NCBI GenBank assembly: GCA_947475465.1
Contig: CANJLK010000001.1
Coordinates: 124,001-188,000 of the forward strand
Origin: Caulobacteraceae bacterium
Lineage (GTDB): Bacteria; Pseudomonadota; Alphaproteobacteria; Caulobacterales; Caulobacteraceae
Direction of reading: 5' to 3'
DNA: 64,000 bases
How positions within the stretch are numbered: position 1 is the first letter of the stretch; each line of letters opens with the position of its first letter. Positions 1,150 to 60,822 of this stretch are shown here, piece by piece. Made by a program: the position numbers and the translations under genes. The notes beneath the pieces are model-generated. The model searched no databases and was not told where the DNA came from. It saw only the letters and a list, made by a program, of their open reading frames with translations.

Positions 1150-1163
1150 GATTGTGCACAATC
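1150..1163. promoter_or_regulatory. Perfect 14-bp palindrome, candidate GntR operator
   Basis: GATTGTGCACAATC is a perfect inverted repeat in the 206-base gap between the divergent exported-protein and GntR genes. FCD-type GntR proteins usually bind short palindromes with GT and AC half-sites and often control their own promoter. The assignment is inference from sequence and position. Confidence 0.5.
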
Positions 1164-1246: not shown

Positions 1247-1993
1247 ATGACCCGGGCTCAGCAGTCGCTTCGCGAGGTCGCGGGCGCCGGACCGCAGACG
1301 TTCGATACGGCCATCCTTTCAGGCGCGCTGGCTGCGGACCCGGAAACCAGCCCGATCGAACGGGTCTTCGCCGGAATCCTGAGCGATCTCAGTGAAGGGC
1401 GCAGCGTCCCGGGCCAACGCCTGGTTGAGGCCGATCTGTCGGCGCGTTTCGGGGTCACGCGGGGCGCCGCGCGGGAGGCTCTGAAGGGGCTGGCCGCCGA
1501 GCGGGTTGTCGAGCTGATCCCCAACAGGGGCGCGCACATCCGCATCCTGTCTCGCCGCGATGTTCTCAACATCCTGCTGGTCATGGAGATGATCACAGGG
1601 CTCGCAGCCCGCCAGGCGGCCGAGAACTGCGACGCCGACGGGGTGGTCTTCATTCGCGCGCGGCTGGCGGCGCTGCTGCGGTTTCGAGATGATCCCGACG
1701 CCGCGGGCTTCATCCAGGCCCGCAACGAATTCCTGCGGGCGATCACCGTCCTGGCCCGCAACAACGAACTCCTGCCGGCCATGCGCGGCGCGCACGTCAA
1801 CCTCGTCCGCGCCCAGCTGCGGGACTACGCGTGGGAAGGCGGCAGGCCCCGGTTCGAAGATTTCCAGGACCTGGCGGACGCGATCGTCGCCGGCGACAGC
1901 GCCTGGGCGGAGGGCGCCGCGCGGCGGCGGATGCGCGAAGCGACGCGGGCGGTGGAGAAGCTGCCAGACGCGGCTTTTCCGCTGGCGGACTGA
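1247..1993 (+). CDS. GntR-family transcriptional regulator, FCD (FadR) subfamily
   Basis: This 248-residue protein has an N-terminal winged helix-turn-helix (ERVFAGILSDLSEG, PGQRLVEADLSARFGV, REALKGLAAERVVELIPNRG) and a C-terminal all-helical FCD ligand domain from about residue 105. The ORF track extends it upstream to 968, but AAGGAGG ten bases before the ATG at 1247 decides this start. FCD regulators typically respond to carboxylate metabolites and repress nearby catabolic or transport genes. It resembles the second GntR at 51499-52266 in layout (both share PGQRLIEADL-like and VxEALKxL motifs). It probably regulates itself and the divergent exported-protein gene through the palindrome at 1150. 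Confidence 0.9.
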   Translation: MTRAQQSLREVAGAGPQTFDTAILSGALAADPETSPIERVFAGILSDLSEGRSVPGQRLVEADLSARFGVTRGAAREALKGLAAERVVELIPNRGAHIRILSRRDVLNILLVMEMITGLAARQAAENCDADGVVFIRARLAALLRFRDDPDAAGFIQARNEFLRAITVLARNNELLPAMRGAHVNLVRAQLRDYAWEGGRPRFEDFQDLADAIVAGDSAWAEGAARRRMREATRAVEKLPDAAFPLAD

Positions 1994-10231: not shown

Positions 10232-10275
10232 GCCGCCAAGAGCGCGGATCGAAAGAGGTCGAACGGAGGAAGGCC

Positions 10276-14356: not shown

Positions 14357-14388
14357 GTGAGGGTAGCGCCGACTCCACACCGACTGCC

Positions 14389-14406
14389 AACAACAACAAC
14401 AACAAC
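14389..14406 (+). repeat. (AAC)6 trinucleotide repeat in TonB-receptor 5' region
   Basis: Six perfect AAC units lie 34 bases before the receptor start, between the stop of CocE paralogue 3 and the ribosome site. Such a tract is unusual in this GC-rich context. It may be an unstructured translation enhancer or a slippage-prone spacer. Confidence 0.8.
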
Positions 14407-14440
14407 GCCCAGACATGGGCAACCAAGGGGAAGAAACGAA

Positions 14441-25962: not shown

Positions 25963-26175
25963 GATGGTCTCCCTCGCCTGACAGGCGTCAATCCGGTCCT
26001 ATTGCGCATTGCGTTCCAGATATAGCCTCTTCCCTGAGGGCTTGAGCCGCGGGATGATCGGGGGCCATCTCTCAATCGTTGTTTCCGTATCGATGGCGCG
26101 CCAGCGTGTTTCCGCCATCGGTTCGGCAGTCGGGCAGGCTGGCACCAAGGCGTTCGGCGACGACCAATCCAGAAC

Positions 26176-26215
26176 AGAGGCGCGACGGCGCCCATTGGAA
26201 ACAGGGAAGGAAACC
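26176..26215 (+). promoter_or_regulatory. Conserved leader before CocE-like gene 4
   Basis: AGAGGCGCGACGGCGCCC followed by GAAACAGGGAAGGAAACC precedes the start and matches the leader of gene 1 closely and that of gene 3 partly. The rest of the 25963-26175 gap between divergent genes holds no convincing promoter or operator that I could fix. Confidence 0.45.
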
Positions 26216-42110: not shown

Positions 42111-43016
42111 TCAGGCCCGCATGAAGGGCTCGATACGGCCGCCGACCTTGGTCTCCACCCGGTAGACCGACGTAGTCGCCGCGATGAACAGGCTGCGCCA
42201 GTCCGGCCCCCCCCAGTGCAGGTTGGCGGCCATTTCCGGTGTCCGGATCTTGCCGATGCGCTCGCCGTCCGGGGCGAAGACCCAAAGGCCGCCCGGTCCG
42301 GTGCACCAGATGTTGCCCTTGGCGTCGCACTTCATGCCGTCCGGCCGGCCGGCCTCGGAATCCGAGGCGATGCCGTCGGCGAAGACCCGCATGTCGGTCA
42401 GCGTTCCGTCGGCCTTGACGTCGAAGGCGCGGATCAGGGCCTGGGTGGTGTCGTTGACGTAGAGAATGGATTCGTCGGGCGAGAAGCACAGGCCGTTTGG
42501 GCTGTCGAACTGGCGTTTGTCCGCCGCCAGCTGCGGCGGGCCGCCCTCCGGCGCGATGCGGAACAGGCCCTGCCAGCCCAGCTGCCGGGGGCGCTCGACG
42601 CCGAAGCCCGGCATGCGGCCATAGAAGGGATCGGAAAAGTAGATCGAGCCATCGGAGCGGATGCAGACGTCGTTGGGGCTGTTGAGCTCCTGACCCTCGA
42701 AGTGGGACGCCAGGACCTCGCGGCTGCCGTCGGGGCGCTCGCGGACCACCTGCGACGTAGAGTGTTCGCAGACCACCCGGTTGAGGGCGGCGTCATAGGT
42801 CATGCCGTTGCACTTGTTGGACGGGCGCATGGCCTCGGAAACACCCTTGGCGTCCCATCGCCTGCGTGTGTCGCCGGGCATGTCCGAGAAGACCAGATAC
42901 TGTTCCTTGGGATGCCAGACGGGGCCTTCGGTGAAAATGCAGCCCGAGGCGATGGCGGTCAGGGGCGCGTCAAGGTCGATGAGATCCCCGAAAGCCGGAT
43001 TGATCGCGGTGTGCAT
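42111..43016 (-). CDS. SMP-30/gluconolactonase-family beta-propeller, paralogue 2
   Basis: I choose Met at 43016 because GGGGAG stands at proper spacing; the track start is six codons upstream. The 301-residue protein has FTEGPVWHPKEQYLVFSDMPG, ELNSPNDVCIRSDGSIYFSDPFYG, DSPNGLCFSPDESILYVNDT and RPDGMKCDAKGNIWC, all SMP-30 metal and substrate positions. It diverges from the second GPH permease across a region that holds an operator-like site, so a lactonase plus permease pair seems co-regulated. Confidence 0.92.
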   Translation of the reverse strand: MHTAINPAFGDLIDLDAPLTAIASGCIFTEGPVWHPKEQYLVFSDMPGDTRRRWDAKGVSEAMRPSNKCNGMTYDAALNRVVCEHSTSQVVRERPDGSREVLASHFEGQELNSPNDVCIRSDGSIYFSDPFYGRMPGFGVERPRQLGWQGLFRIAPEGGPPQLAADKRQFDSPNGLCFSPDESILYVNDTTQALIRAFDVKADGTLTDMRVFADGIASDSEAGRPDGMKCDAKGNIWCTGPGGLWVFAPDGERIGKIRTPEMAANLHWGGPDWRSLFIAATTSVYRVETKVGGRIEPFMRA

Positions 43017-43106: not shown

Positions 43107-43119
43107 ATTGTCCGACATT
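43107..43119. promoter_or_regulatory. TTGTCCGACA-type operator candidate (lactonase/permease promoter)
   Basis: ATTGTCCGACATT is a near-palindrome between divergent SMP-30 and GPH permease genes. It shares TTGTCCGACA with the sites at 46301 and 55223 and fits the GT...AC layout of FCD GntR operators. A TTGACT element for the minus gene lies just beside it. Confidence 0.5.
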
Positions 43120-43217
43120 GCTTGCCGTGCGCCGCGTTTTCCGCAAGGTTCGGCGCCTGAAGGTTGGCCGCGAGAATGGGACCGCCAGTGTCCCGAAGCG
43201 GTGGGGAGGAAACGAGC

Positions 43218-44672
43218 ATGGCCGAAGTTTCGATAGTCGATGGCGCGCCGGTCAAGGCGGGCTTCTTAGGCCGCATATTCCGACGGGGCTCGTCGGACAG
43301 CCTGTCGCTCGGCCAGCTGATGGCCTACGGCGGCCCGGCCATTCCGCTGCAGATGATGATCATGCCCGTGGCGCTGTTCCTGGCGCCGCTGTTCACGGGC
43401 GAGCTCGGCGTCTCCATGTCGACCTGGGCGGCCGTTCTCGGCATGGCGCGGATCATCGATATCGCCACCGACCCCATCGTGGGCATGCTGTGCGACCGGT
43501 TCCCGAGCCGTTGGGGACGCCGCCGGCACTGGGTGGTGATCGCCACGCCGATGGCCATGATCGGCTGCGCGCTGCTGTTCACGCCACACTATTTCGTCAC
43601 CACGCCCACCTTCGCCTATCTGCTGGTGGCGACCCTGCTGTTCAACTTCTCCACGACGCTGCAGAATCTCAACATGTCGGCCTGGGGTGGGGAACTCTCC
43701 ACCGACTACGCCGAGCGCACCCGCATCATGGGCTGGCGCTATGTGATGGTCGCCATCTCCTGCCTGATGACGTTCGGCATTCCCGCGGCGATGGAGTGGT
43801 TCCTGCCGCACCCGAGCATGGGCGACAAGGTCCGCGCCCTCATGTGGACCGCGGTTGTGCTGATGCCGCTGGCGACCTTCCTGGCGGTCGTCTTCGTGCC
43901 CGAGCGCCCCGGCGACGAGGTCGCCCACAAGGACCGCCAGTCCTTCAGCGTGCTCGAGATCTTCGCCACCCTGAAGCGGATGTTCACCAACAAGTACCTG
44001 GGCTGGCTGGTCCTGGTGGCCCTCTTGCAGGCCGGCCCGACGGCGGTGAAGGCCTCGCTGTTCGTCTTCTACGTCTCCTACATCATCAAGGCGCCGGGCA
44101 TGACGGCGACCCTGCTGCTGGCCGTCTATATCGCCAGCATGATCTCCACGCCGATCTGGATGTGGCTGGCCAAGGGGCGCGAGAAACACCGGCTTCTGGC
44201 CGTCTCGGTGCTGATCTACGGCTGTTCGCAGGCGACCATGATGTTCTGGGGACCGAACCAGCTGTTCTTCTTCGTCTGCGCCATCGCCATCAACGGCGCG
44301 ATGAACTCAGGCCCCGCCTTCCTGATGCAGTCGATCATGGCCGACGTGGTCGACTCCGACACGGTGAAGAGCGGCAAGCAGCAGACCGGAGCCTTCTTCG
44401 CCATGCTGGAGACCACGACCAAGCTGGCGCCGACCCTGGTTGTGGTGGCCATCTTCCCGATGCTGCAGGCCTGGGGCTTCGATCCCACGGGCAAGCACAA
44501 CACCCCCGATTCACTGAACACGCTGCGGCTGGCTTTCGCGCTCGCCCCGACGGTGCCGGTGCTGGTGGCGGCGCTGCTGCTGTGGAACTTCCCGCTGGGT
44601 TCGAAGCGCCACGGGGAATTGCGGTCCGAGATCGACGCGGCGCTCGCCGAGCGTGGTTCGTCCCGCGACTGA
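43218..44672 (+). CDS. MFS permease of the GPH type, paralogue 2
   Basis: The 484-residue permease begins at ATG 43218 after GGGGAGGA. It repeats the hallmarks of the copy at 32400: IIDIATDPIVGMLCDRFPSRWGRRRHWVV, MSAWGGELSTDYAERTRIMGWRY and MADVVDSDTVKSGKQQTGAFFAM, and it ends with the same LWNFPLGSKRHGELR motif. The strong similarity implies a duplication. Its likely cargo is related to, but perhaps not the same as, that of the first copy. Confidence 0.92.
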   Translation: MAEVSIVDGAPVKAGFLGRIFRRGSSDSLSLGQLMAYGGPAIPLQMMIMPVALFLAPLFTGELGVSMSTWAAVLGMARIIDIATDPIVGMLCDRFPSRWGRRRHWVVIATPMAMIGCALLFTPHYFVTTPTFAYLLVATLLFNFSTTLQNLNMSAWGGELSTDYAERTRIMGWRYVMVAISCLMTFGIPAAMEWFLPHPSMGDKVRALMWTAVVLMPLATFLAVVFVPERPGDEVAHKDRQSFSVLEIFATLKRMFTNKYLGWLVLVALLQAGPTAVKASLFVFYVSYIIKAPGMTATLLLAVYIASMISTPIWMWLAKGREKHRLLAVSVLIYGCSQATMMFWGPNQLFFFVCAIAINGAMNSGPAFLMQSIMADVVDSDTVKSGKQQTGAFFAMLETTTKLAPTLVVVAIFPMLQAWGFDPTGKHNTPDSLNTLRLAFALAPTVPVLVAALLLWNFPLGSKRHGELRSEIDAALAERGSSRD

Positions 44673-44685
44673 TCGAATGGGGGAC

Positions 44686-44709
44686 CGTCACGGCGATGTC
44701 GTCGTGACG
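44686..44709 (+). terminator. Hairpin with CGTCACGGCG stem after GPH permease
   Basis: CGTCACGGCG and CGTCGTGACG pair (one G-U) around ATGT, 14 bases after the permease stop. The same stem sequence recurs at 44897. There is no T-run. Confidence 0.45.
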
Positions 44710-44896
44710 CCGCGGCCTATCGAATGTCGCCGAACAGTCAGCTTCCCGCCGCCGCGCTCACGCCGGTGGGCGAGGCTGAGGGTCGCCATCTACTTTTGGA
44801 AAGTCCTGCCGCGCCGAAAGCGCTGAGCGCTGGTGGCGCGCCCCTATCGACGCTGCGCTCGCTGAGAGCTGTTCGCCGTCCCACCTAGGGGAAGGC
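44710..44896. other. Non-coding spacer between two matching hairpins
   Basis: The 187 bases between convergent permease and P450 genes hold no ORF with coding character and no promoter that I can identify. AGCGCTGAGCGCT near 44819 is a short internal repeat. Confidence 0.4.
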
Positions 44897-44922
44897 GCGT
44901 CACGGCGTCGCCGCCGTGACGC
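44897..44922. terminator. Perfect 11-bp stem hairpin between convergent genes
   Basis: GCGTCACGGCG and CGCCGTGACGC form a perfect stem with a TCGC loop, nine bases from the P450 stop on the minus strand. It probably terminates the P450 transcript and perhaps readthrough from the permease. The stem repeats the sequence of the hairpin at 44686. Confidence 0.6.
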
Positions 44923-44931
44923 TGATCTTCG

Positions 44932-46227
44932 TTACTGCGCGTCGAATTCGATGTGCAGTTGCTTCGGCACGCGCTTTTGGAAGTTGTCGATGTTCTCGCG
45001 TTCGGCGTCATGGCCGGGCGCGAAGCGCGGGTTCTTCAGGCGGTCGAGCATCACCGCCAGGGCGATGCGGCCCTCGGCGATGGCGATGGCGTTGCCCAGG
45101 CACCGGTGCGGTCCGCCGCCGAACGCCATGTTCAGCTCCGGAATGCCCGGACGGTCGACACGGAAAGCTTCCGGATCGCCCCACGATTCGTCGTGGTTGG
45201 CCGAGCCGTAGAGCATCAGGACATAGGCCCCCTTGGGGATCGGCACACCGCCCACCTCGGTGTCCTGCATGACCAGGCGCGAGGTCCACTGGGTCGGCGC
45301 CTCGAAGCGCAGGGCCTCGTCGATGACGTTGGGGATCAGTTCGCGGTCGTCGAGCACCTTTTTCAGTTCCGAAGGATTCTCGATCAGCAGCTTCCAGACG
45401 TTGGCGACCAGCCGTGAGGTGGTCTCATTGCCCGCCGTCAGCACCAGGCCGATTTCGGAGACCAGGTAGGGCAGGTTGATCTCGCCGTCGCGCTCGACCT
45501 GGGCCTTCACGACGCCGGTGATGAAGTCGTCCTTGGGGTTGGCCAGACGATCTCGGATGATCGCGGCGCAGTAGAGGTCGCGCTCGGGGATGTCCTCGTC
45601 CTGGGCCTTGCGTTGCTCGTCGGTCAGGTAGCGCCGGCCGTGGCCGGTGCCGATGCGGTTCCAGCCCAGGAAGATGGCGCGGTCTTCCGGCGGATAGCCG
45701 GCGAGCTCGCAGATGGTCAGCAGGGCCAGCGGATCTGCGAACTGGGTGCGAAGCTCGCACTTGCCCTCGTGGATGAAGGTGTCGATCAGTTCGTTGGCGA
45801 TGCGCCGCAGGGTGTCTTCCGAGGCCCGGATATAGCGTGGATCGACCAGCGAGCGCAGGGCCCGGCGCTTGATGCTGTGCTCGGGGGGATCGGAGGCCGT
45901 CAGACCAAACGAGGTCTGGATGGCCGTGCCCGGGGTGTGCGGCGGGTTTTCGACCCAGCCCTTTTGCGAGCCCTGCAGCATGCGCGGGTCACCAAGGTAG
46001 GTGCGGTTGGAGAACACCTCGGTGTTGCGCAGCACGGCCATGATGTCGTCGCGGCGCGAGATCAGGTAGTCGTTGCGATCGGGGTATTTGTAGACCGGGG
46101 CCTCGGCCCGCAGCGCCGCGTAGAACGGGTACGGGCAGGCCGTCACCTCAGGCGACGGGAAGGCAAAATCCTTCAGGCAGCGTTGGGCGCCCGTGTCCGG
46201 AGCCGCATCCTTGGTTTCGCTCGCCAT
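44932..46227 (-). CDS. Cytochrome P450, paralogue 2
   Basis: Start at ATG 46227 follows GGAGGA; the track start is 114 residues upstream in the regulatory region. The 431-residue protein has heme loop FGGGPHRCLG (Cys about 376), ExxR (DEALRFE) and I-helix TAGNETT with the canonical Glu-Thr pair, unlike paralogue 1. It ends with the family-like KNPRFAPGHDAERENIDNFQKRVPKQLHIEFDA, echoing the end of paralogue 1. It diverges from a TonB receptor across a region with operator-like sites. Confidence 0.95.
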   Translation of the reverse strand: MASETKDAAPDTGAQRCLKDFAFPSPEVTACPYPFYAALRAEAPVYKYPDRNDYLISRRDDIMAVLRNTEVFSNRTYLGDPRMLQGSQKGWVENPPHTPGTAIQTSFGLTASDPPEHSIKRRALRSLVDPRYIRASEDTLRRIANELIDTFIHEGKCELRTQFADPLALLTICELAGYPPEDRAIFLGWNRIGTGHGRRYLTDEQRKAQDEDIPERDLYCAAIIRDRLANPKDDFITGVVKAQVERDGEINLPYLVSEIGLVLTAGNETTSRLVANVWKLLIENPSELKKVLDDRELIPNVIDEALRFEAPTQWTSRLVMQDTEVGGVPIPKGAYVLMLYGSANHDESWGDPEAFRVDRPGIPELNMAFGGGPHRCLGNAIAIAEGRIALAVMLDRLKNPRFAPGHDAERENIDNFQKRVPKQLHIEFDAQ

Positions 46228-46300
46228 TGTTTCCTCCATTGCTGGGTCGCCTCGCGGGGGCGGTTCCCTTTGCGCGCGACAATAGCCGGACGTCCTGTCC

Positions 46301-46309
46301 TGTCCGACA
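46301..46309. promoter_or_regulatory. TGTCCGACA operator candidate upstream of P450
   Basis: A perfect 9-base odd palindrome, 74 bases before the P450 start, identical to the core of the sites at 43109 and 55224. Confidence 0.45.
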
Positions 46310-46524
46310 AAATCGAGCTCTGGCAATATACTACCGTCCGTTTGATTCAAGAGGGCAGGCGCAGTTGCGCGGCGGATCGGGCCGCCGAATCGTCCCGGGG
46401 CGCCTGGGATGGCAGACCCTCTCGGCGCCCCAGGGGCAGATGTAGATTTGCAACAGATCGCCAACTTAGTGGCGCTCCAAACAAATGTATGTCCGAATTT
46501 CCGGACTTGCGACCCTCCGAGGGA

Positions 46525-46535
46525 TTGACGGACAA
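46525..46535. promoter_or_regulatory. TTGACGGACAA operator-like site upstream of TonB receptor 2
   Basis: It matches TTGTCNGACAA at all but one outer position and overlaps the possible -35 of the receptor promoter, 84 bases before the start. Confidence 0.35.
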
Positions 46536-46618
46536 AATTGCAAACATCATTAGAGCCGCGCTGCGCCATGAGGGCGCTCCGTGTCAGAAATCAATCCGCA
46601 TAAATGCGGGGGGGAAAC

Positions 46619-48961
46619 ATGAGAAATTCGGACAAGCTTCGTTGGCTGAGCGCGTCTTCCGCGGTGATCGCACTGTCCATGGCGATCGCGCCTGCGGCCA
46701 AGGCCGAAGCCGCCGCCGGCGCCGCCGCCGCGTCTGCCGCGCCGGTCGCGGTTGAAGAAGTCATGGTCACCGGCCGTAAGCGGGCCAAGGCCGAAGTGCT
46801 GCAACAGACCCCGATCGCCGCCACCGCGGTGAACGCCCAGCAGATCGAAGCCGCCCACGCGGTCGACCTGATCGACCTGGGCCGCCTGACGCCGGGCGTG
46901 TCCTTCCAGCAGGCCAACAGCGCCTACTACAACGACTTCCAGATGCGCGGCATGGGCAACGCGGGCACCTCGCCCCAGGACGAGCCCCCGGTCGGCATCA
47001 TCTATGACGGCATCTATCTGGGCACCGGCACCGGCGCGAACCTCGACCTGTTCGACGTCCAGGACGTCTCGGTCCTGCGCGGCCCGCAAGGCACCCTGTT
47101 TGGCCGGAACGTCACCGCCGGCGCGGTTGTGATCAACACCAACGGCGCGAGCTTCAACAAGTCGGCCGCCCTGTCGGCCAGCTTCGGCTCCAACAGCGAC
47201 TCCGAAGAAACCGTCGTCCTGAACGCTCCCCTCTGGGGCGACGTGGTCGCCGGCCGCCTGGCGGCCCGCTACCTGCACAACGGCAACTGGGCCAACAACC
47301 CCAACCGCGGCCGCCGGGTCGGCGGCACCGATGACTACATGCTCCGTGGCGCCCTGCTGATCCGCCCGACCGCCGACATCGACATCAACCTGAAGGCCGC
47401 TTATCAGGCCGTCGCTGGCGACGCCCAGCCGGTCCGCGGCCTGTCGCCCAACACGACCCCGGCCTCGACCCTGGTGCCGATCCCGATCTTCTCCTATCCG
47501 CAAGCCAAGGGCTCGGTCACACCGAACGATTGGTGGACGGTGCTCAGCCCCTCCAACAACACCCAGGCGCTGGAAACCCTGAGCTTCATCGGCCAGCTCG
47601 ACTGGCGCCTCCTCGGCGGCGTCCTGACGCTGGTCGAAGGCTACCGCCAGGTCGAAAGCGACAACGCCAACCAGTTTGACGGCTCTTCCGCGCCCTCGTT
47701 CCGGTCCACCGGCCCCTACTACCAATGGCAGGACAGCACCGAAATCCGCTTCGCGCAGGAAGTCGGCCGGCTGAACTACACCGTCGGCGGCTACTACTTC
47801 CTGACCGGCCTGGACTCGGCCCAGCGCCGGACCCTGAACAGCAACATCTTCTCGACCTCGGCGGCGGTGAACCCGATCTGCGCCACAAACCGCAACAACA
47901 CCACGCCGCTCTGCGTGACGGGCTCGAGCTTCAGCGACACGGCGCAGCGCGCCCTGCAAACCACCTGGAGCACGGCGCTGTTCGCGGAAGGCGACTTCGC
48001 CATCACCGACAACCTGACCTTCACGGCCGGTATCCGTCAGACCCGCGAACACAAGCGCGCCGTCGTGGCGGGCTTCGCCGCCATCCCGGTCAGCGGCGCC
48101 GATTGCAGCCGGACCATTCAGGTCTGCAACTTCGGCCCGACCCGCACCTACGCGGCGTCCAACGTGTCGCCCAAGGCCGGCCTGTCCTACAAGTTCGACA
48201 CCAACCACATGGTGTTCGGCTCGGTGACCCGCGGCTTCCGCAGCGGCGGCTACTCGCTCCGCGGCGCGGCCCTGACCTTCGCGCCCTACGGCGCGGAAAA
48301 GGTGACCGCCTATGAACTGGGCACCAAGAACGACTTCCTGGATCACCGCCTGCGCCTGAACGCCACGGTGTTCCTGAGCAAGTATAACAACCTGCAACGG
48401 ACCGTGACCCAGCAGGACCCGGTTCAAGGGATCATCCAGTCGACCTTCAACGCCGCCACCGCGACGATCAAGGGCATCGAACTGGAAGGCATCGCCCAGC
48501 TGAACCAGAACTGGAGCGTCAACGCGGTCTACGGTTACGTCGATGCGAAGTACGACAACTTCGCCGGCCTGACCAACGCCGCCGGCGTCTACACCGCCTT
48601 CGCGCCGGTCTCCGACCTGAAGTTCAACCGCCTGCCGGACACCACCGCCGGCATCAGCCTGAACTACAAGGGTGACCTGGGCGACATGGGGACCCTGTCG
48701 GGCCGCCTGGGCGCCTCCTACTCCAGCCACTACTTCTTCGACGACGTGAACACGCCGACGAACGACCAAAAGGCTTACACCCTGGTCGACAGCACGCTGA
48801 CCTTCGACTCGGCCAGCCGCGACTGGAGCGTCACGATCTACGGCAAGAACCTGACCAAGACCAAGTACGCGCAAGCCGGCGCGAACCTGGGCGGCAACGG
48901 CCAGAACTTCTACATCGGCAAGCCGATCTCCTACGGAGTGAAGGTTGCCCGCAAGTTCTAG
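46619..48961 (+). CDS. TonB-dependent outer-membrane receptor 2
   Basis: The 780-residue receptor starts at ATG 46619 after a GGGGGGG tract. It has a signal peptide (SAVIALSMAIAPAAKAEA), an Ala-rich spacer, a TonB-box/plug segment (VEEVMVTGRKRAKAEVLQQTPIA; LRGPQGTLFGRNVTAGAVV) and a barrel ending GVKVARKF. It is shorter than receptor 1 and clearly not a recent copy. Codon choice is more uniform (many GAC, AAC, CTG, CGC) than in neighbours, consistent with high expression, and it has a strong terminator of its own. Confidence 0.95.
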   Translation: MRNSDKLRWLSASSAVIALSMAIAPAAKAEAAAGAAAASAAPVAVEEVMVTGRKRAKAEVLQQTPIAATAVNAQQIEAAHAVDLIDLGRLTPGVSFQQANSAYYNDFQMRGMGNAGTSPQDEPPVGIIYDGIYLGTGTGANLDLFDVQDVSVLRGPQGTLFGRNVTAGAVVINTNGASFNKSAALSASFGSNSDSEETVVLNAPLWGDVVAGRLAARYLHNGNWANNPNRGRRVGGTDDYMLRGALLIRPTADIDINLKAAYQAVAGDAQPVRGLSPNTTPASTLVPIPIFSYPQAKGSVTPNDWWTVLSPSNNTQALETLSFIGQLDWRLLGGVLTLVEGYRQVESDNANQFDGSSAPSFRSTGPYYQWQDSTEIRFAQEVGRLNYTVGGYYFLTGLDSAQRRTLNSNIFSTSAAVNPICATNRNNTTPLCVTGSSFSDTAQRALQTTWSTALFAEGDFAITDNLTFTAGIRQTREHKRAVVAGFAAIPVSGADCSRTIQVCNFGPTRTYAASNVSPKAGLSYKFDTNHMVFGSVTRGFRSGGYSLRGAALTFAPYGAEKVTAYELGTKNDFLDHRLRLNATVFLSKYNNLQRTVTQQDPVQGIIQSTFNAATATIKGIELEGIAQLNQNWSVNAVYGYVDAKYDNFAGLTNAAGVYTAFAPVSDLKFNRLPDTTAGISLNYKGDLGDMGTLSGRLGASYSSHYFFDDVNTPTNDQKAYTLVDSTLTFDSASRDWSVTIYGKNLTKTKYAQAGANLGGNGQNFYIGKPISYGVKVARKF

Positions 48962-48989
48962 TCTAACGTCTAGAATGTGATCGAAAGTC

Positions 48990-49023
48990 GAGGCGTGGGG
49001 CGTTCCCCACGCCTCTTCTTTTT
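48990..49023 (+). terminator. Rho-independent terminator after TonB receptor 2
   Basis: GAGGCGTGGGG and CCCCACGCCTC form a perfect 11-bp stem around CGTT and are followed by TTCTTTTT. It is the clearest intrinsic terminator in the window and isolates the receptor from the crotonase gene. Confidence 0.93.
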
Positions 49024-49066
49024 GCTCAAATGGTTCGGACCAAGAAAACCAAAAAGGGAGTCAAAC

Positions 49067-49924
49067 ATGGCCCGGGATATGGAAGACGAAAACGGCCTGG
49101 TGGTCGGCGCCTACACCGAGAAGCGCGGTGAGGTGGGCTGGATCATCATGCGCGACTACGACAAAACGTCGAACGCCTCGCTGACCGCCAAGAAGTACAT
49201 CCACATCATGCAGGCGGTCGGCCAGGCCCTGCACGACTTCCGCTACGATCCCGAAGTCCGCTGCATCGTGCTGACCGGCGAGAACGACGGCGAGTTCTAC
49301 CGCGTGGCCCGCGGCGTCTCCTACGACGACCCGGGCAACCGCGCGCGGCTCAATCCCATCAACCGCAAGGGCCCCGTGCTCGGCAACACCTTCCCGAACG
49401 CCTTGGAACTGTTCGCCGTGATTGAAAAGCCGATCATTGCGCGGGTGAACGGCGACACGATCGGTTTGGGTCAGGCCTTCTTCTGGGGATGCGACATCAT
49501 CGTTGCGCGGGAAGACGCGATCATCTCCGACGTCCACACCGGCATGCAGACGGTCATCGATTCCAACGGCGAGGTCCGCGGCTTCCCCTGGGCGGTGACG
49601 CCGGGCGATGGGGCCCAGTCCTTCCTGGCCATGTTCATGCCGCCCACGTTGATGAAGGAATATCTGTTCACCTCTCCAGTGTGGTCGATGAAGCGGCTGG
49701 AGCAGATGAACATCGTCAACTACGCGGTGCCCATGAGCGAATTGGACGCCAAGGTCGACGAGATGGTAGCCAAGATCCTGAAGCGGCCGTCGTCGGTCCT
49801 GGCCCACGCCAAGCGGGTCGCGCAGAAGCGCCTGATCGAGAACTGGAACCTGCACCAGGACCTGGCCATGGCCTACGAGCACCTGGACTTCTTCACCCAC
49901 GCCGCCCAGGGCAATATGGACTGA
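49067..49924 (+). CDS. Enoyl-CoA hydratase/isomerase (crotonase)-family protein, atypical
   Basis: Start ATG 49067 follows AAAAGGGAG; the track start at 48977 lies in the terminator. The 285-residue protein has the crotonase fold pattern (VRCIVLTGENDGEF; NGDTIGLGQAFFWGCDIIVARED). The first oxyanion motif (usually FSAGAD) reads FYRVARGVSY, and the catalytic Glu region reads VHTGMQTVIDSNGEVRG with an insertion. It is probably a diverged hydratase, hydrolase or isomerase acting on a CoA thioester. Adenosine-rich AACCAAAAAGGGAG leader suggests efficient translation. Confidence 0.82.
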   Translation: MARDMEDENGLVVGAYTEKRGEVGWIIMRDYDKTSNASLTAKKYIHIMQAVGQALHDFRYDPEVRCIVLTGENDGEFYRVARGVSYDDPGNRARLNPINRKGPVLGNTFPNALELFAVIEKPIIARVNGDTIGLGQAFFWGCDIIVAREDAIISDVHTGMQTVIDSNGEVRGFPWAVTPGDGAQSFLAMFMPPTLMKEYLFTSPVWSMKRLEQMNIVNYAVPMSELDAKVDEMVAKILKRPSSVLAHAKRVAQKRLIENWNLHQDLAMAYEHLDFFTHAAQGNMD

Positions 49925-49953
49925 TCGCGGCGAGATACTGGCTGCGAATGGTG

Positions 49954-49993
49954 AGGCCGTCGAACCGACCGGTTCGACGGCCTTCGTCATTTT
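49954..49993. terminator. Bidirectional terminator between crotonase and NTF2-like genes
   Basis: A perfect 13-bp stem (AGGCCGTCGAACC / GGTTCGACGGCCT) with loop GACC is followed on + by TCGTCATTTT. It lies between two convergent genes. Confidence 0.8.
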
Positions 49994-50021
49994 GGCCTGA
50001 CTTGTCGTCAGATTGCGAGCC

Positions 50022-50501
50022 TCAGTTGGCGGAACGGCGGCCCCATCGGCCGGCCAGCTGGCGCCAGCGGTCGGCCACGGCGGCGAACTGGCCCTTGCGT
50101 TCGCGCAGCAGAGCTTCGCTTGGCGGCACGATCCAGGTCATGGTCATGGACGAAAACCGCCATGCGCCGTCGTCGCCGCGCACATATTCGTCCTGATAGT
50201 GGCCAAGGGCGCCGCGGTTGTTGAACGACCAGAAGCCCTTCGCCTTGCCGGGTCCGGTGATCTCGAGGATCGGCATCTGTGCGACGTGGACGTGCAGCTC
50301 CCCGGCCAGGTTCTTGCTCAGGGCGGCCACGAAGGCGGGCGCGCCCTCGTAGTCGCCGCTGCCCACCGAGAAGCGACAGTCAGGCGTGAACAGGGTTTCG
50401 AAATCCTCCCAGGCCAGGGCGTCGAGCAGCAGGCAGTAGCGGGCGCGCAACTGCCTGATGGCCTCCAAGTCGATCAGGTCCTGCAAGGTCATCTGGGTCA
50501 C
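50022..50501 (-). CDS. NTF2-like (SnoaL/dehydratase-type) protein
   Basis: Three starts are possible. I prefer GTG 50501, because GGAGG lies five bases upstream; the ATG three codons on is the alternative, and the track's Met at 50561 is unsupported. The ~159-residue product has the SnoaL_4 pattern: LIDLEAIRQLRARYCLLLDALAWEDFETLFTPDC, then HVAQMPILEITGPGKAKGFW and a terminal basic helix. The family includes dehydratases, isomerases and epoxide hydrolases of steroid and terpene pathways. Similar in plan to the gene at 59700. Confidence 0.78.
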   Translation of the reverse strand: MTQMTLQDLIDLEAIRQLRARYCLLLDALAWEDFETLFTPDCRFSVGSGDYEGAPAFVAALSKNLAGELHVHVAQMPILEITGPGKAKGFWSFNNRGALGHYQDEYVRGDDGAWRFSSMTMTWIVPPSEALLRERKGQFAAVADRWRQLAGRWGRRSAN

Positions 50502-50623
50502 GGCGTCCTCCGGCTTTTCTCGCGCACAATCCGCGATCTGCGTCGCGGCGATGCGGCCCAAGGTGCAGTATCCGGCTGGCCGTGGAAAGGCGTCACATCC
50601 GGGCGCAGGCGCAGGGGAACAAT

Positions 50624-51523
50624 ATGGATCTGGGCTTTGTCGGACTGGGCGCCATGGGTCGCGAGATGGCTGGGCGGCTGCTAGACGCCGGCCACGATGT
50701 GGCGGTGTTCAACCGCACGCCGGCCAGGATGGCGCCCTTGACGGCGCGCGGCGCCAGGGGCGCCGAAAGCCTTGCGGACGCCGCCCGCCACGGGGGTCTG
50801 GTGCTGACCATGCTGGCCAATGACGCGGCCCTGCGCGAAGTGGCCCTGGGGCCGGAGGGCCTGATCGCCAGCCTGCCCAGCGGAGGGATTCACGTGGCCA
50901 TGGGCACCCATAGCCTGGACCTGATCAACGCCCTGGCTGAGGCCCATGCGGCGGCCGGGCAGTGGCTGGTCGCCGCCCCCGTCCTGGGACGCCCAGAAGC
51001 GGTTGCGGCGGGACGGCTGGGGATCGTCGTGGCTGGGGCCGACGAAGCATTGCGGCGTTGCCGTCCGGCGCTCGAAGCCATTGGGCCGCGGATCGTCGAG
51101 GCTGGATCGTCGCCCGCCGCCGCGGCTTCTGTGAAGATCGCCAACAACATGCTGCTGGCCTGCGCCATCGAGGCCTTGGGCGAGGCCTTCGCCCTGACCG
51201 ACGCCTGCGGCGTGGACGCGGACCTGTTCCTTTCCGTGATCACCGGCGGGCTGTTCGCCTGTCCGGCCTACGCGACCTACGGCGGACTGATCGCAACCCA
51301 GCGGTTCGAGCCTGCGGGCTTTACCGCCGCCCTGGGCCTGAAGGACGTCAATCTGGCGCTGGCGGCGGGTCTGGGGGTGGGGGTCGCCTTGCCGGCCGCG
51401 GAAGTCTGCCGTGACGGGCTGGCCGACGCGGTCGCCCGGGGCCAGGGGGACCTCGACTGGGCGGTGATGTCGCGGCGCTCGGGCCCGCCCGAGCCGCCCT
51501 ACTCGCCGGCCGCGAAGACGTAG
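50624..51523 (+). CDS. 3-hydroxyisobutyrate-dehydrogenase-family oxidoreductase
   Basis: The 299-residue enzyme (ATG 50624 after CAGGGGAAC) has the classical motifs LGFVGLGAMGREMAGRLL for NAD(P), FNRTPARM, and KIANNMLLACAIEALGEAF with the catalytic Lys. It is closer to textbook 3-hydroxyisobutyrate dehydrogenase than the two paralogues at 24040 and 31570. It overlaps the convergent GntR gene by 25 bases, so the C-terminal end may be less conserved. Confidence 0.9.
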   Translation: MDLGFVGLGAMGREMAGRLLDAGHDVAVFNRTPARMAPLTARGARGAESLADAARHGGLVLTMLANDAALREVALGPEGLIASLPSGGIHVAMGTHSLDLINALAEAHAAAGQWLVAAPVLGRPEAVAAGRLGIVVAGADEALRRCRPALEAIGPRIVEAGSSPAAAASVKIANNMLLACAIEALGEAFALTDACGVDADLFLSVITGGLFACPAYATYGGLIATQRFEPAGFTAALGLKDVNLALAAGLGVGVALPAAEVCRDGLADAVARGQGDLDWAVMSRRSGPPEPPYSPAAKT

Positions 51524-52266
51524 TCGGGCAGGCGGTCCATGCCGCGCTGGATGCGGCGCACGTGGGCCCGCGCCGCGCGCTCGGCCTGGGATCCATCATT
51601 GGCGACGATGGCGGCGGTCATCTTCTGGTAGTCGTTGTAGAGGTCGTTCTGGGTCATGATCACGTAGCGGGGCGAGACCTGGGTGCGCATCAGGTAGACG
51701 TGCATGCTGGGCAGGATGCGGATCAGTTCGTTGTTGCCGCCGACCGTGGCCATCACGCGGTAATAGGCGTTACGGGCGCGCACGAAGCCGGCGAATTCCT
51801 CGGGCCGGTTCTTGTGGGCCATGAGCGCGGCCAGGTTGTCGCGCATCAGCCGCGCGCCGGCCGTGTCGCACTGTTCGGCCGCCAGGCGGGCGGCCAGGCC
51901 CACCATCGACTCCATCACCTGCAGGATGTCGCGGACATCGTTGCGCGACAGGGTGCGGACATAGGCGCCCTTGTGGAAGGTGAGCACGACGACGCCCTCG
52001 ACCTCCAGCTTCTTGAGGGCTTCGCGTACGGAGCCGCGGCCCACTCCGTAGGTGACAATGAGATCGGCTTCGATGAGCCGCTGGCCGGGGACATAGCGGC
52101 CTTCGTAGATGCCATCGAGGATCTCGTTGAACACCCGCTCGGAAGGACTGTTGGCCTCGCCGTCGGCCCGCGGGCTGCGCGCGCTCGCGTCGCGGCCCAC
52201 GACCTTGCGCGTGACGCCTGTCCCCTCGCTTGCCGCGGGGGCCCGCTGTCCGATCGACCTTGCCAT
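51499..52266 (-). CDS. GntR-family transcriptional regulator, FCD subfamily
   Basis: The 255-residue regulator has a ~35-residue basic N-terminal extension and a winged helix (SERVFNEILDGIYEGRYVPGQRLIEADL, VGRGSVREALKKLEVEGVVVLTFHKGAYV). A helical FCD ligand domain follows. It lies among four TTGTCCGACAA-like sites at divergent promoters and is the obvious candidate for binding them. Its own start region is within a 17-base duplicated segment. GGAGGA stands ten bases before the ATG. Confidence 0.92.
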   Translation of the reverse strand: MARSIGQRAPAASEGTGVTRKVVGRDASARSPRADGEANSPSERVFNEILDGIYEGRYVPGQRLIEADLIVTYGVGRGSVREALKKLEVEGVVVLTFHKGAYVRTLSRNDVRDILQVMESMVGLAARLAAEQCDTAGARLMRDNLAALMAHKNRPEEFAGFVRARNAYYRVMATVGGNNELIRILPSMHVYLMRTQVSPRYVIMTQNDLYNDYQKMTAAIVANDGSQAERAARAHVRRIQRGMDRLPDYVFAAGE

Positions 52267-52345
52267 ACAGCCCAGGTCCTCCGACCTCTATCCAATCCGC
52301 GACGTCAGCCGCCGCGACGAGACCCTGAGCCATACAGCCAAGGTC
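52262..52345. repeat. 17-bp direct repeat at the GntR start codon
   Basis: GCCATACAGCCCAGGTC (52262-52278) and GCCATACAGCCAAGGTC (52329-52345) differ at one base. On the minus strand both contain ATGGC, the first being the GntR start, so a second, out-of-frame ATG exists 67 bases upstream. It may be a duplication or a binding element. Confidence 0.7.
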
Positions 52346-52407
52346 GCTCTTCGATTCCCGTCAATCCCGCCTTGCCCGACGCGCGGTCGCCTGATGGAAC
52401 GGCGGCG

Positions 52408-53145
52408 TCAGGTTTTGGCGACCGCGGCTTCGCGTCCGAACAGCGCCTTGAGCGACGCGGCCTTTTCCGCGACCGAGATCTGACTGGTCTGGGCCGCGAA
52501 ATCTGCGCCCGCCGCCCGCCCGCGCTGGACGGCCGGCCGCGCGCCCACCCGATCGAGCCAATGCTTGATGTTGGGAAATTCGCCAATATCCAGCTTCATG
52601 AAGCTGTGGCCGATGACGAAGGGCCAGGTGGCCATGTCGGCGATGGAGTAGTCGCCGGCGATGAAATCGCGGCCTTCCAGCCGTTCGTTCAGCACCCCAT
52701 ACAGCCGCTTTACCTCGCGGTCGTAGCGGTCGCGGGCGTAGGTGAGCTGGTCGGGATTTTCAGCCAGCAGGGGCGCATAGATCAGAAAATGCCCAAGCTG
52801 GCCGGTCATCGGGCCAAGACCCGACAACTGCCACATCAGCCACTGCTCGACCTCGGCGCGCGCGCGCGGGTCCTCCGGATAGAACTGGCCGCTCTTGCGA
52901 CCCAGATAGAGCAGGATGGCGCCGCTCTCGAAGATCGAGATCGGCTTTCCATCCGGACCATCGGGATCGATGATGGCCGGCATCCGATGGTTGGGGCTCA
53001 GCTTGACGAAGTCTGGCCGGTGCTGATCGCCCGCGCGGATGTTCACGCTGGTGAGGGTGTAGGGAAAACCCATCTCCTCCAGCGCGATGGTCACCTTCCA
53101 GCCGTTGACCGTCGGAAAGAAGAAGACCTCTATCGGCGCGCTCAC
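52408..53145 (-). CDS. Glutathione S-transferase (YfcG/YghU-like)
   Basis: The start is GTG 53145 within the GTGA overlap with the upstream gene; the track's longer ORF reads antisense-like residues. The 245-residue protein has a thioredoxin-fold N-domain (FFFPTVNGWKVTIALEEMG, SPNHRMPAIID, ESGAILLYLG) and an all-helical C-domain (FIAGDYSIADMATWPFVIG). The pattern is that of nu-class GSTs with disulfide-reductase or glutathione-conjugate activity. It is the last gene of a coupled operon. Confidence 0.9.
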   Translation of the reverse strand: MSAPIEVFFFPTVNGWKVTIALEEMGFPYTLTSVNIRAGDQHRPDFVKLSPNHRMPAIIDPDGPDGKPISIFESGAILLYLGRKSGQFYPEDPRARAEVEQWLMWQLSGLGPMTGQLGHFLIYAPLLAENPDQLTYARDRYDREVKRLYGVLNERLEGRDFIAGDYSIADMATWPFVIGHSFMKLDIGEFPNIKHWLDRVGARPAVQRGRAAGADFAAQTSQISVAEKAASLKALFGREAAVAKT

Positions 53146-53576
53146 GTCGCCGCGAACCCGACCTTGGCCATGCCCGCCTGGGCGCTTTCGATATCCTGGT
53201 CGGGCATGCCGCCGCTGACGCCCACGCCGCCCACCAGGACGCCGTCGATCACCAAGGGGAAGCCGCCGCCGAAGACGACGACCCGCTCGCCTTGCGGAAT
53301 GCCGGTCATGAGGGGGCCGTTGTCCTTGATCATCGGATACCAGACGTCCGTGGCCAGGCCGAAGCCCGCCGCGGTGTAGGCCTTGTCGTGCGCCCACTTG
53401 ATCGCCAGCAGCGGCGCCCCGTCCATGCGCAGGAAGGCCTTCAGCACCCCGCCCGCGTCGCAGACCGAGATGGCCGCTGCCCGGCCGTTCTCGGCGGCAT
53501 GGGCGGCGATCGCGGCAACCAGGGCGTGGGCGGTGTCAGCGGAAACGGTTCCGCCCGGATAGCTTTTCGCAGTCAT
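53142..53576 (-). CDS. GlcG/HbpS-family heme-binding-like protein
   Basis: The ATG 53576 start (AAGGA upstream, ATGA overlap with the previous stop) gives 144 residues. It shows the family patterns ISVCDAGGVLKAFLRMDGAP, KWAHDKAYTAAGF and GGFPLVIDGVLVGGVGVSGG. Members bind heme or cobalamin in some species, and many are simply linked to catabolic operons. No signal peptide, so cytoplasmic. It sits between a PaaD-like protein and a GST. Confidence 0.88.
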   Translation of the reverse strand: MTAKSYPGGTVSADTAHALVAAIAAHAAENGRAAAISVCDAGGVLKAFLRMDGAPLLAIKWAHDKAYTAAGFGLATDVWYPMIKDNGPLMTGIPQGERVVVFGGGFPLVIDGVLVGGVGVSGGMPDQDIESAQAGMAKVGFAAT

Positions 53577-53974
53577 ACGGTTTCCTTGTTGGTTGCGCAG
53601 GTGGGGCAGGCCTGGGCGCATTTGGCGGCGATATTGGCCAGGCGCTTTTCCCGCCATTCGGCGATCTTGGCCAAGGCCTTTGGCGTCGCGTTGTCCTCGG
53701 TCCAGATGGCGTCGCCGCGAATCTGCACCTGGACATCGGTGACGCCCTCAACCGCGCCGGCGGCGATCTGGATGTCGCGCAGGATGTCGTAGGCGTAGGT
53801 GCAGGTCGGGTCGTCGAGCAGCAGGCGCACATGCGCCTCGCCGCCTTCGCCGACGGTGACGGCGTCGATCATCCCGAGTTCGCCGAAGCTCAGCCGGGTG
53901 CCGTTCAGGCGGCTGCAGGGATCGAGCACGTCGCCGACGGCGTGCTCGACCTGGGTTTGCAGGAGACTGGCCAT
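53573..53974 (-). CDS. MIP18/PaaD-like metal-sulfur cluster assembly protein
   Basis: The 133-residue protein has DUF59-like features (VLDPCSRLNGTRLSFGELGMID, DPTCTYAYDILRDIQIA) and a Cys-rich tail (AAKCAQACPTCATN). PaaD-type proteins help mature Fe-S clusters in oxygenases. The Cys tail is not typical of the basic domain and may bind metal. Coupled to the HbpS-like gene by a four-base overlap and 23 bases after the amidohydrolase. No oxygenase with a Fe-S cluster is adjacent, so the client is unknown. Confidence 0.75.
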   Translation of the reverse strand: MASLLQTQVEHAVGDVLDPCSRLNGTRLSFGELGMIDAVTVGEGGEAHVRLLLDDPTCTYAYDILRDIQIAAGAVEGVTDVQVQIRGDAIWTEDNATPKALAKIAEWREKRLANIAAKCAQACPTCATNKETV

Positions 53975-53997
53975 GGTCGGTTTCCCTCCCGTCCCGA

Positions 53998-55074
53998 TCA
54001 GGCCGCCAGGCCCTTGGCCATGCGGTCGCGGAAGTGGGTCCAGGGCGCGGCGAGACCCGCGGCCTGGCGCTGGGAAACTTCGTCGCCGGCGATCTTGGCC
54101 TTCAGGGCGGCGGAGTCGATGCCGTGCAGGCGCAGGAAGTTCTCGCCCATGATGCCGCGCAGGATTTCCGGCGTCATCTGCGGATAGCCGAAACCTTCGA
54201 CCAGGTCCTGCGGCATCTGGAAGTCGAAGAAGGCGTCGATGATCGGCTGCGGGTGGGTCAGGCAGCAGCCGCTGGCCCAGACGATGCGGTCGCCTGCCCC
54301 GTTCTGCAGCAGCTTGCCCATGAACTCGGCGAAGCGGCGGGGCGCCTTGAAGATCAGGCCGGAAGAGACCTCCAGGTTGAACCAGCAGTTGGGGATGCCG
54401 GCGAGCGCGACGGTCTCGTCCACGAAGGCGAAGCCGGAGTGGACGATCTCGAAGTTCATTTCCGGGAACACGGTGCAGGCTTCCGGCACGTCGGCCACGC
54501 CATAAGGATCGGGACGGACCGGGCCGAACGGGACGGCCTTGTGGACGGCGATGGTCTTGACGCCCAGCTTCAGGGCCTTCTCGATCATGTCGTAGCCGAA
54601 CTTCGGGTCGTCGAGGCGCTGGTCGTAGGTCTTGCCGTTGTGGAAGCGGGCCGCATAGATTTTGAGGCCGTTCACGCCGCGGTCGACCAGCTCTTCCATT
54701 TCATAGACGGCGGTCGCCGGATCGTAGGGGTTGATCGCGCCGTAGATCATGGTGCGTTCCGGGAAGCGCGCCTTCATGGCGAAGCCCTTCTCGGTGTCGC
54801 AGTGGCCGTCCTTGAAGAAGTCCCAGATCGGCGTGCCGTGGTGGCAGGCGATGTCCACCTGGGATTCGTAGAAGATGGATTCCGCGACTTCGTCGCTCGA
54901 CCAGTCGCGCAGGAATTCGTCGCGGGTCAGGGTGGTCGCTTCGTCGCGGCACAGGAAGCCGTGGAAGCCCGCGCCGGCCTCGCAGGCGAGCGCCGATGTC
55001 GGCTGCGCCCAGTTGGACTTGGCCCAATTGTAACCGTGCACAATCGAGTCCACGATGAGCATATCGTTCTTCAT
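53998..55074 (-). CDS. Amidohydrolase-superfamily protein with altered metal-site motifs
   Basis: A 358-residue protein with a strong ribosome site (GCAGGAGGA). It is an amidohydrolase-2-like barrel with GLKIYAARFHNG, AVHKAVPFGP and EIVHSGFAF on successive strands. The N-terminal HxH is reduced to VDSIVHGYN, and the final GSDyP loop reads WASGCCLTHP, so the catalytic Asp position appears lost. It may be a metal-independent decarboxylase or lyase, or use other ligands. First gene of the minus operon with PaaD-like, HbpS-like and GST genes. Confidence 0.78.
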   Translation of the reverse strand: MKNDMLIVDSIVHGYNWAKSNWAQPTSALACEAGAGFHGFLCRDEATTLTRDEFLRDWSSDEVAESIFYESQVDIACHHGTPIWDFFKDGHCDTEKGFAMKARFPERTMIYGAINPYDPATAVYEMEELVDRGVNGLKIYAARFHNGKTYDQRLDDPKFGYDMIEKALKLGVKTIAVHKAVPFGPVRPDPYGVADVPEACTVFPEMNFEIVHSGFAFVDETVALAGIPNCWFNLEVSSGLIFKAPRRFAEFMGKLLQNGAGDRIVWASGCCLTHPQPIIDAFFDFQMPQDLVEGFGYPQMTPEILRGIMGENFLRLHGIDSAALKAKIAGDEVSQRQAAGLAAPWTHFRDRMAKGLAA

Positions 55075-55222
55075 GCCGTCCTCCTGCGGGACCTGCGGAT
55101 GCGCAGGGTCCGTGCGTTGCCTCCGGAGGTGGAACAGGACGGGTCAATCCCTGACCTCGTTTCCCCACCCCGTTCTGTCGTGGACCCGTCTCTTGGCGAT
55201 CCTGCGACCCTGGCACTGTGGT

Positions 55223-55233
55223 TTGTCCGACAA
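55223..55233. promoter_or_regulatory. TTGTCCGACAA operator candidate (amidohydrolase/thiolase promoter)
   Basis: A perfect 11-base odd palindrome in the 248-base gap between divergent operons. On the minus strand a TTGACA (55242-55237) stands just before it, so the site would lie in the promoter spacer and a bound repressor would block transcription of the amidohydrolase operon. It fits the FadR-subfamily layout GT-M-N-K-AC. Confidence 0.55.
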
Positions 55234-55322
55234 CTTTGTCAACTCAACAGTCGTCCAGGCGCTAGCTCTGCGCACAGAAACATGTCTAATCGCGGCAACC
55301 AAAAGACCGCCGGGGAGGTGGA

Positions 55323-56792
55323 ATGACCAAGCTATCGCCGCGCACGCCGGTCCTCGTGGGGATCGGCGCCGTCACCCAGCGCGAGGAGGACCCGGCCCGC
55401 GCGCTGGAGCCGGTCGCCCTTATGATCGAAGCCGCCCGCCAGGCCGGAGCCAGCGCCGGGTCGCCAGACCTGCTCAAATCCGTCGAACGGATCTACGTGC
55501 CCAAGGGACGCTGGGACTATGGCAACCCCGCGGGCCTCATCGCCAACGCGCTGGGCGCCAGCCGCGCAGCCACGGTCCTGGCCAAGGTCGGCGTCCTGCA
55601 GCAGGGCCTGATCGGCGACGCCTGCGCCCGCATCGCCGAGGGCGAGGTTGACGTGGCCCTGGTCGCTGGGGGCGAGGCTGGCTACCGCCTTCTGCGCCAG
55701 AAGATCACCGGCGTGTCCGCGCCAGATCTGACCGACGAAGGGGAGCCCGACGCCCTGATGTCGCCCAAGAGCGAACTGCGTCACCCGGCCGAACTGGCCG
55801 CGGGACTGCAGATGCCGGTCGGCCTCTACGCCATGATCGAGACCGCCTATCGCGCGGTCCAGGGGATGACGCTCCAGGCGCGGATGGACCAGATCGGTCG
55901 GCTCTACAGTCGTTTCAGCGAGATCGCGGCCGACAACCCCGGCGCCTGGGAGCGCAAGGCGTTCGAGCCGCAGGACCTGCAGGTTGGGCCGCGCAATCCC
56001 ATGCAGGCGTTCCCCTACACGAAGCGCCACTGCTCGTCCTGGAGCGTCGACCAGGCCTCGGCCCTGCTGTTCTGCTCGCTGGAGAAGGCGCAGGCGCTAG
56101 GCCTTCCGGAAGCTGGCTGGATCTATCCCCTGGTCAGCTCGGAGTCGAACAGCATGACCCCGGTTTCGGCGCGGGTGCGGGTGGACGAATGCCCCGGCGC
56201 GCGGATCGCCGGCCTGGCGGCTCTGGACCACGCCGGGATCGCGGCCGCCGACCTGGACCTGGTCGAACTCTACAGCTGCTTCCCGATCGCGGTGGACACC
56301 TACGCCACGGCGCTTGGCCTGTCGTCCGAGCGGGACCTGACGGTGACCGGCGGCATGCCGTTTTCCGGCGGGCCGTACAATAACTACGTCCTGCAATCGA
56401 CGGCCCGGATGGCTGAACTTCTGCGGCAGGGCCGGGGACGGACGGGCCTCGTCTCCTCCGTGTCCGGCGTGCTGACCAAACAGGGGTTCGGGGTCTGGTC
56501 GACGCGGCCGGGCGAGCGGCCATATCGGTCCATCGACGTGACGGATCAGGTCGAGGCGCAATGCCGTCGGCTGGACGTGGTCACCGATTACACGGGCGAT
56601 GGGCGGATCGTCAGCTACACCGTCACCTACGACCGCGAGCGACCGCCACGCGGCGTCGTCATCGTCGATACGGCCGGCGGGCAGCGCACTGTGGGCCGGT
56701 CCGATGATGCGGCCGTGGTGGCCCAGCTGGAGGCCGGCGAACTGCACGGCCGTCCGGTGCGCCTGTCGCAGGCGGTCTTCGATTTCCAATAG
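55323..56792 (+). CDS. Thiolase-like protein (TLP1 type) without nucleophilic Cys
   Basis: The 489-residue protein has a thiolase fold: PVLVGIGAVTQREED at the start, DLVELYSCFPIAV and GGMPFSGGPYNNY in the C-half. A ~75-residue additional C-terminal beta domain (VTDYTGDGRIVSYTVTY) is typical of type 1 thiolase-like proteins. The segment expected to carry the nucleophile reads KVGVLQQGLIGDAC, with no Cys at the usual place. GGGGAGGT before the ATG is a near-consensus site. First gene of the + CoA operon. Confidence 0.85.
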   Translation: MTKLSPRTPVLVGIGAVTQREEDPARALEPVALMIEAARQAGASAGSPDLLKSVERIYVPKGRWDYGNPAGLIANALGASRAATVLAKVGVLQQGLIGDACARIAEGEVDVALVAGGEAGYRLLRQKITGVSAPDLTDEGEPDALMSPKSELRHPAELAAGLQMPVGLYAMIETAYRAVQGMTLQARMDQIGRLYSRFSEIAADNPGAWERKAFEPQDLQVGPRNPMQAFPYTKRHCSSWSVDQASALLFCSLEKAQALGLPEAGWIYPLVSSESNSMTPVSARVRVDECPGARIAGLAALDHAGIAAADLDLVELYSCFPIAVDTYATALGLSSERDLTVTGGMPFSGGPYNNYVLQSTARMAELLRQGRGRTGLVSSVSGVLTKQGFGVWSTRPGERPYRSIDVTDQVEAQCRRLDVVTDYTGDGRIVSYTVTYDRERPPRGVVIVDTAGGQRTVGRSDDAAVVAQLEAGELHGRPVRLSQAVFDFQ

Positions 56793-60742: not shown

Positions 60743-60822
60743 GGTCTCTCCCCCGTTCCTGGAATTTGTCATCCCGCGAGCGACTACCTACAACGCAGGC
60801 CCCACGCCATGGAAACCCGTTC

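Follow-up and report, generated by a model that had tools for sequence, protein, structure and literature searches.

A predicted regulon of a FadR-subfamily regulator in a candidate catabolic island of a Caulobacteraceae bacterium

We wanted to establish whether the short palindromes that recur between divergent genes in a 64,000-nucleotide stretch of a Caulobacteraceae genome (the window) are operators and, if so, which regulator would bind them. A sequence-only reading had placed four such sites in three divergent promoter regions. When we allowed at most one mismatch to TTGTCNGACAA, the motif was found at 43108, 46300, 46525, and 55223 and nowhere else in the window; the sites are thus located as claimed, 55223 being exact and the other three carrying one mismatch each. 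In shuffled sequences, the mean number of such places was 0.64, and four were reached in 2 of 100 shuffles. In the whole genome (2.98 Mb, 88% complete), TTGTCNGACAA occurs four times exactly and at 45 places with at most one mismatch; because TTGTCNGACAA read backwards, which served as the control, gave 60 places, the motif is not over-represented overall. The presence of 4 of the 45 places within 12.1 kb was matched in 3% of random placements and is, taken alone, moderately unlikely. The rarity of the sites, their geometry, and their link to a clade of GntR genes across genomes, as described below, were all computed here.

Predicted operator 1 (43108..43118; TTGTCCGACAT, extended AATTGTCCGACATT) is situated at about the middle of a 201-bp gap, with a minus-strand gene for an SMP-30/gluconolactonase-like lactonase (42111..43016; PF08450, 6e-53) as its left predicted target and a plus-strand gene for a GPH-type MFS_2 permease (43218..44672; PF13347, 1.6e-74) as its right one. 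Operator 2 (46300..46310; CTGTCCGACAA) is 78 bp from the start of its predicted target, a minus-strand cytochrome P450 gene (44932..46227; PF00067, 4e-22), and operator 3 (46525..46535; TTGACGGACAA), the left half of which doubles as a TTGAC −35-like string, is 89 bp from the start of a plus-strand TonB-dependent receptor gene (46619..48961; PF00593/PF07715), its own predicted target, after which comes an enoyl-CoA hydratase-like gene (48977-49924). Operator 4 (55223..55233), the perfect copy TTGTCCGACAA, is in the gap between a minus-strand Amidohydrolase_2 gene (53998..55074; PF04909) and a plus-strand gene for an SCP2/thiolase-like protein (55323..56792; PF18313, NF006103). The latter is the first gene of a putative CoA operon that also contains two CoA-transferases (57692-58909 and 60766-62055; PF02515) and an SDR (62068-62943). 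An additional TTGTC half-box is found at 55236-55240, 10 bp from the centre of operator 4; further half-boxes 7-12 nt from FadR-subfamily sites are described in passages of PMC4494728.

With Shine-Dalgarno-preceded ATGs taken as start codons (43016, 43218, 46227, 46619, 55074, and 55323), all four sites are non-coding and lie between divergent genes, as had been proposed. The sites at 46300 and 46525 lie within a mechanically called P450 open reading frame (44932-46569), but this frame runs too far upstream, past the probable start at 46227. A scan of the three gaps for σ70-like promoters detected only CCGACA-17-TATACT at 46304-46332, overlapping operator 2. The distances of the single sites to their two starts are 97/105 bp and 154/95 bp, and those of the double pair are 78 and 89 bp. 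This geometry agrees, at single and double sites alike, with the GntR divergon rules set out in passages of PMC4494728, by which a single site lies near the middle of the gap and double sites each lie near their own gene. We also note a near-palindrome, GTCCGAATTTCCGGAC, at 46491-46506 in the P450/TonB receptor gap, between operators 2 and 3.

The gene proposed to encode the DNA-binding protein is located on the minus strand at 51499..52266. Its product contains an N-terminal GntR winged helix (PF00392, 2e-13) and a C-terminal all-helical FCD/FadR effector domain (PF07729, 4.9e-12), both above cut-off, and thus has the architecture of the FadR subfamily. The PDB chain closest by sequence is 3ihu (6.9e-38, aligned over residues 34-247), which shares the GntR+FCD architecture; it was matched by sequence only, and its entry names no function. 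We do not file the 51499 product under a named orthologue because it reached none of the NCBIfam equivalog cut-offs for named groups (PhnR, NanR, CsiR, PdhR, LldR, and others), the best being phnR_burk (score, 72.8 bits; cut-off, 271.5).

The sites have the layout that would be expected for a regulator of this subfamily, the operator consensus of which is given in passages of PMC4494728 as GT-M-N-K-AC (N-GTM-N0-1-KAC-N). In line with the sequence-only reading, 55223, 43108, and 46300 read GT-C-C-G-AC; 46525, with one half altered (GA-C-G-G-AC), was counted within the consensus. The FadR-subfamily regulons described by comparative genomics in the same passages resemble the window in their T-K-GT/AC-M-A boxes with a GT-AC distance of 3 nt, in their divergon geometry, and in their extra half-boxes 7-12 nt away, whereas the content of the window's predicted regulon and its orthologous group match none of the groups named in those passages. 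Compared by operator, the sites are also like those of LhgR, a GntR-family regulator of Pseudomonas putida W619 that protects TTGTCTGACAA in its own promoter and TAGTCTGACAA in the lhgO promoter from DNase I (PMC8206213): arms, 3-nt spacing, and C-N-G centre are alike. However, LhgR controls L-2-hydroxyglutarate oxidation beside lhgO, whereas the predicted targets in the window are P450, TonB receptor, lactonase, permease, and CoA genes, and the named domains in the neighborhood of the 51499 gene give no hint of an L-2-hydroxyglutarate oxidase (lhgO).

To see whether the palindrome accompanies related regulators, GntR homologues from GTDB genomes were fetched with 10-kb flanks. The palindrome ATYGTCNGACRAT was found around GntR genes of other genomes with products 35-44% identical to the 51499 product. 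At 27 loci of close relatives, with identities of about 33-44% (at least 35% in almost every case), TTGT-N3-ACAA occurred 10 times against 0-3 times at other spacings, with TCGTCNGACGA, e.g. acaagaTCGTCTGACGAt, as a recurring variant; at 51 loci of distant relatives, TTGT-N2-ACAA occurred 62 times against 3-8 times at other spacings. In 30 close relatives (at least 35% identity), the DNA next to the GntR gene was searched blindly with all 4-base palindrome arms and spacers, and TTGT-N3-ACAA came first (5 loci versus 0.23 expected; p = 3e-6, uncorrected for some 600-2300 patterns). The closest same-genus homologue (41-43%; on a contig of a Phenylobacterium MAG) has an exact TTGTCGGACAA between the GntR gene and an acyl-CoA dehydrogenase gene, and in the relative with the most similar HTH (62%), TTGTCCTACAA lies between the GntR gene and a TonB receptor gene in divergent orientation. 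The naming of the 51499 product as the regulator is thus supported: it is a GntR+FCD protein, and in other genomes the same palindrome goes along with its nearest relatives. The relatives' loci show no close synteny with the window. The amidohydrolase has no close relative among 149 genomes of the family. As a point against the sites being operators of this regulator, no matching operator was seen upstream of thiolase relatives (46-48% identity) in four other Alphaproteobacteria genomes, where the best-scoring place, TTGGAAAGACAAA at 13.9 bits, is without the GT half. As a separate observation, the Thiodictyon/Lamprocystis GntR relatives (L087, L089, L090, and L081) have in common the perfect palindrome AAGTGTCGACACTT, which precedes the GntR match by 20-47 bp.

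The predicted operators are most strongly supported by weight matrices for which other genomes alone supplied the training sites: these put the four sites at ranks 1-4. With a matrix of 21 sites, 43108, 46525, 55223, and 46300 came first to fourth of about 64,000 positions, scoring 17.3, 15.9, 15.5, and 10.2 bits, respectively; the next place scored 8.6, and 0.15 places would be expected at 15.5 bits or more. A matrix of nine TTGT-type sites again put the four on top (14.7-18.5 bits; next, 8.1), with 46525 at rank 1 and 46300 at rank 3. A caveat is that the training sites were chosen by TTGT/TCGT patterns that the motif of the sequence-only reading had suggested, although the central triplet was unfixed in most of these patterns. 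When training was limited to nine TCGT-type sites, the window's sites fell to ranks 6, 16, 19, and 232; the motif therefore belongs to the TTGT-type variant. It could be argued that the four sites are unrelated palindromes that arose by chance in GC-rich intergenic sequence, given that the window holds 30 TGTCCGACA-like places at one mismatch to the 9-mer and that the clustering p value is only 0.03. We consider this extremely unlikely, since the other-genome matrices put exactly these four sites on top and all four fall within the roughly 5% of the window that is non-coding by this annotation. Nor is it at all probable that a regulator of another type (e.g. TetR or MarR) uses the same palindrome by coincidence: inverted repeats do serve many regulator families, and the list of regulators is partial for a genome that is 88% complete, but in other genomes the palindrome goes with this clade's GntR genes, and it is an exact fit to the FadR-subfamily consensus.

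When the genome was searched with an FCD profile, only two genes were detected, both inside the window: 51499 and a plus-strand gene at 1247..1993, the product of which is 43% identical to the 51499 product. The sites could therefore belong to the 1247 product, which is the only other FCD protein of the genome and falls, like the 51499 product, in the clade with spacer-3 sites, or both paralogues could bind them. We regard this as unlikely. The 1247 gene is 42-54 kb away from the sites, its recognition-helix region (TRGAAREAL) is less typical, and its own promoter has no spacer-3 site but a perfect spacer-2 palindrome, ATTGTGCACAAT (1151..1162), which a spacer-2 matrix scored highest (19.4 bits versus 12.0 for the next place) and which is likely the operator of the 1247 regulator itself. 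The spacer-2 palindrome at the 1247 promoter therefore speaks for the 51499 product as the protein that would bind the N3 sites; with a 43% identical paralogue in the same clade, this assignment is favored rather than proven. A precedent for two FadR-subfamily regulators in one genome is GntR1/GntR2 of Corynebacterium glutamicum, with the consensus TNGTNNNACNA (PMC2230225); these two are functionally equivalent, whereas the window's paralogues appear to differ in operator spacing. Overall, the four sites are likely to be operators of a FadR-subfamily (GntR + FCD) regulator, most likely the 51499 product.

We next considered how far the predicted regulon extends. Among the genome sites examined, eight score at least 15 bits, and seven of these are intergenic, three of them in the window; the motif is therefore not equally common in coding DNA, as it might have been had the sites been spurious. 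The genome-wide scan, which had been suggested as a check, gave the window its 4 of 45 places and also revealed predicted targets outside it. Predicted sites are located on contig C31 ahead of hydrolase-like and SnoaL genes (position 12425) and ahead of a TonB receptor gene with dienelactone-hydrolase and MFS genes (position 10641), on C17 ahead of a pair of glyoxalase-fold (VOC) genes (position 18826), and on C4 ahead of an enoyl-CoA hydratase gene (position 13350). The eighth site, on C29, is one of the four exact matches in the genome; it lies in coding sequence and was discounted as a probable chance occurrence. Thus, the predicted regulon appears to reach beyond the window's island and to include a TonB-receptor/hydrolase island. 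This second island (C31, 6000-16000) contains three candidate sites, the hydrolase-like/SnoaL genes and then the TonB receptor, dienelactone hydrolase, and MFS genes; its TonB receptor is 36% identical to another receptor of the window (14357-17215). A more tentative proposal, which we rate as possible but doubtful, is that the paralogous regulators at the two ends of the window's island diverged in spacing (N3 for 51499, N2 for 1247) to give two insulated regulons, with the N3 regulon extending in trans to the second TonB-receptor/hydrolase island on the other contig.

Within the window, the distribution of sites is best explained by a single predicted regulon that spans lactonase/permease, P450/TonB receptor, and amidohydrolase/thiolase. 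We infer both binding and the operon organization. A dimer of the 51499 product would bind TTGTC-N-GACAA with one half per subunit; one central site would govern each of the pairs SMP-30/permease and amidohydrolase/thiolase, and the P450 and TonB receptor genes would each be under a separate site of their own. Judging from its family, the 51499 product is probably a ligand-responsive repressor, which would most likely repress its targets until the FCD domain takes up a pathway intermediate, either an acid or a CoA ester, and the protein is released from the DNA. The regulator gene follows, on the same strand, the genes for the amidohydrolase, a MIP18-like protein (53573-53974; PF01883), an HbpS-like protein (53142-53576; PF03928), and a GST (52408-53145; GST families), and the perfect site at 55223 thus precedes this entire minus-strand set, of which the regulator gene is the last member. 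Because of this gene order, the 51499 product probably regulates its own expression. A point against the overall explanation is that the 141-bp gap directly before its gene contains no site.

The predicted regulon is new, and the kind of gene control is already familiar. For an uncharacterized clade of FCD regulators, it supplies an operator and a regulon that can be put to the test, and it joins TonB receptor, P450, lactonase, permease, and CoA genes in one candidate degradation pathway, the inducer of which could then be found. Further, close and distant relatives divide cleanly by spacer (N3 versus N2), which offers a natural data set on how GntR dimers set the distance between half-sites. 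The window's genes form a candidate catabolic island for the breakdown of some compound. We also note that the island has five S15/CocE-type hydrolase genes (8297-14356, 26009-28159, and 37788-39719), three of them in tandem, and that two adjoining ABC transporter genes (membrane plus ATPase; 4473-8188) are located beside the tandem. A further S15/CocE-type copy on contig C2, which is 67-70% identical to four of the window copies and 57% identical to the fifth, precedes another TonB receptor gene.
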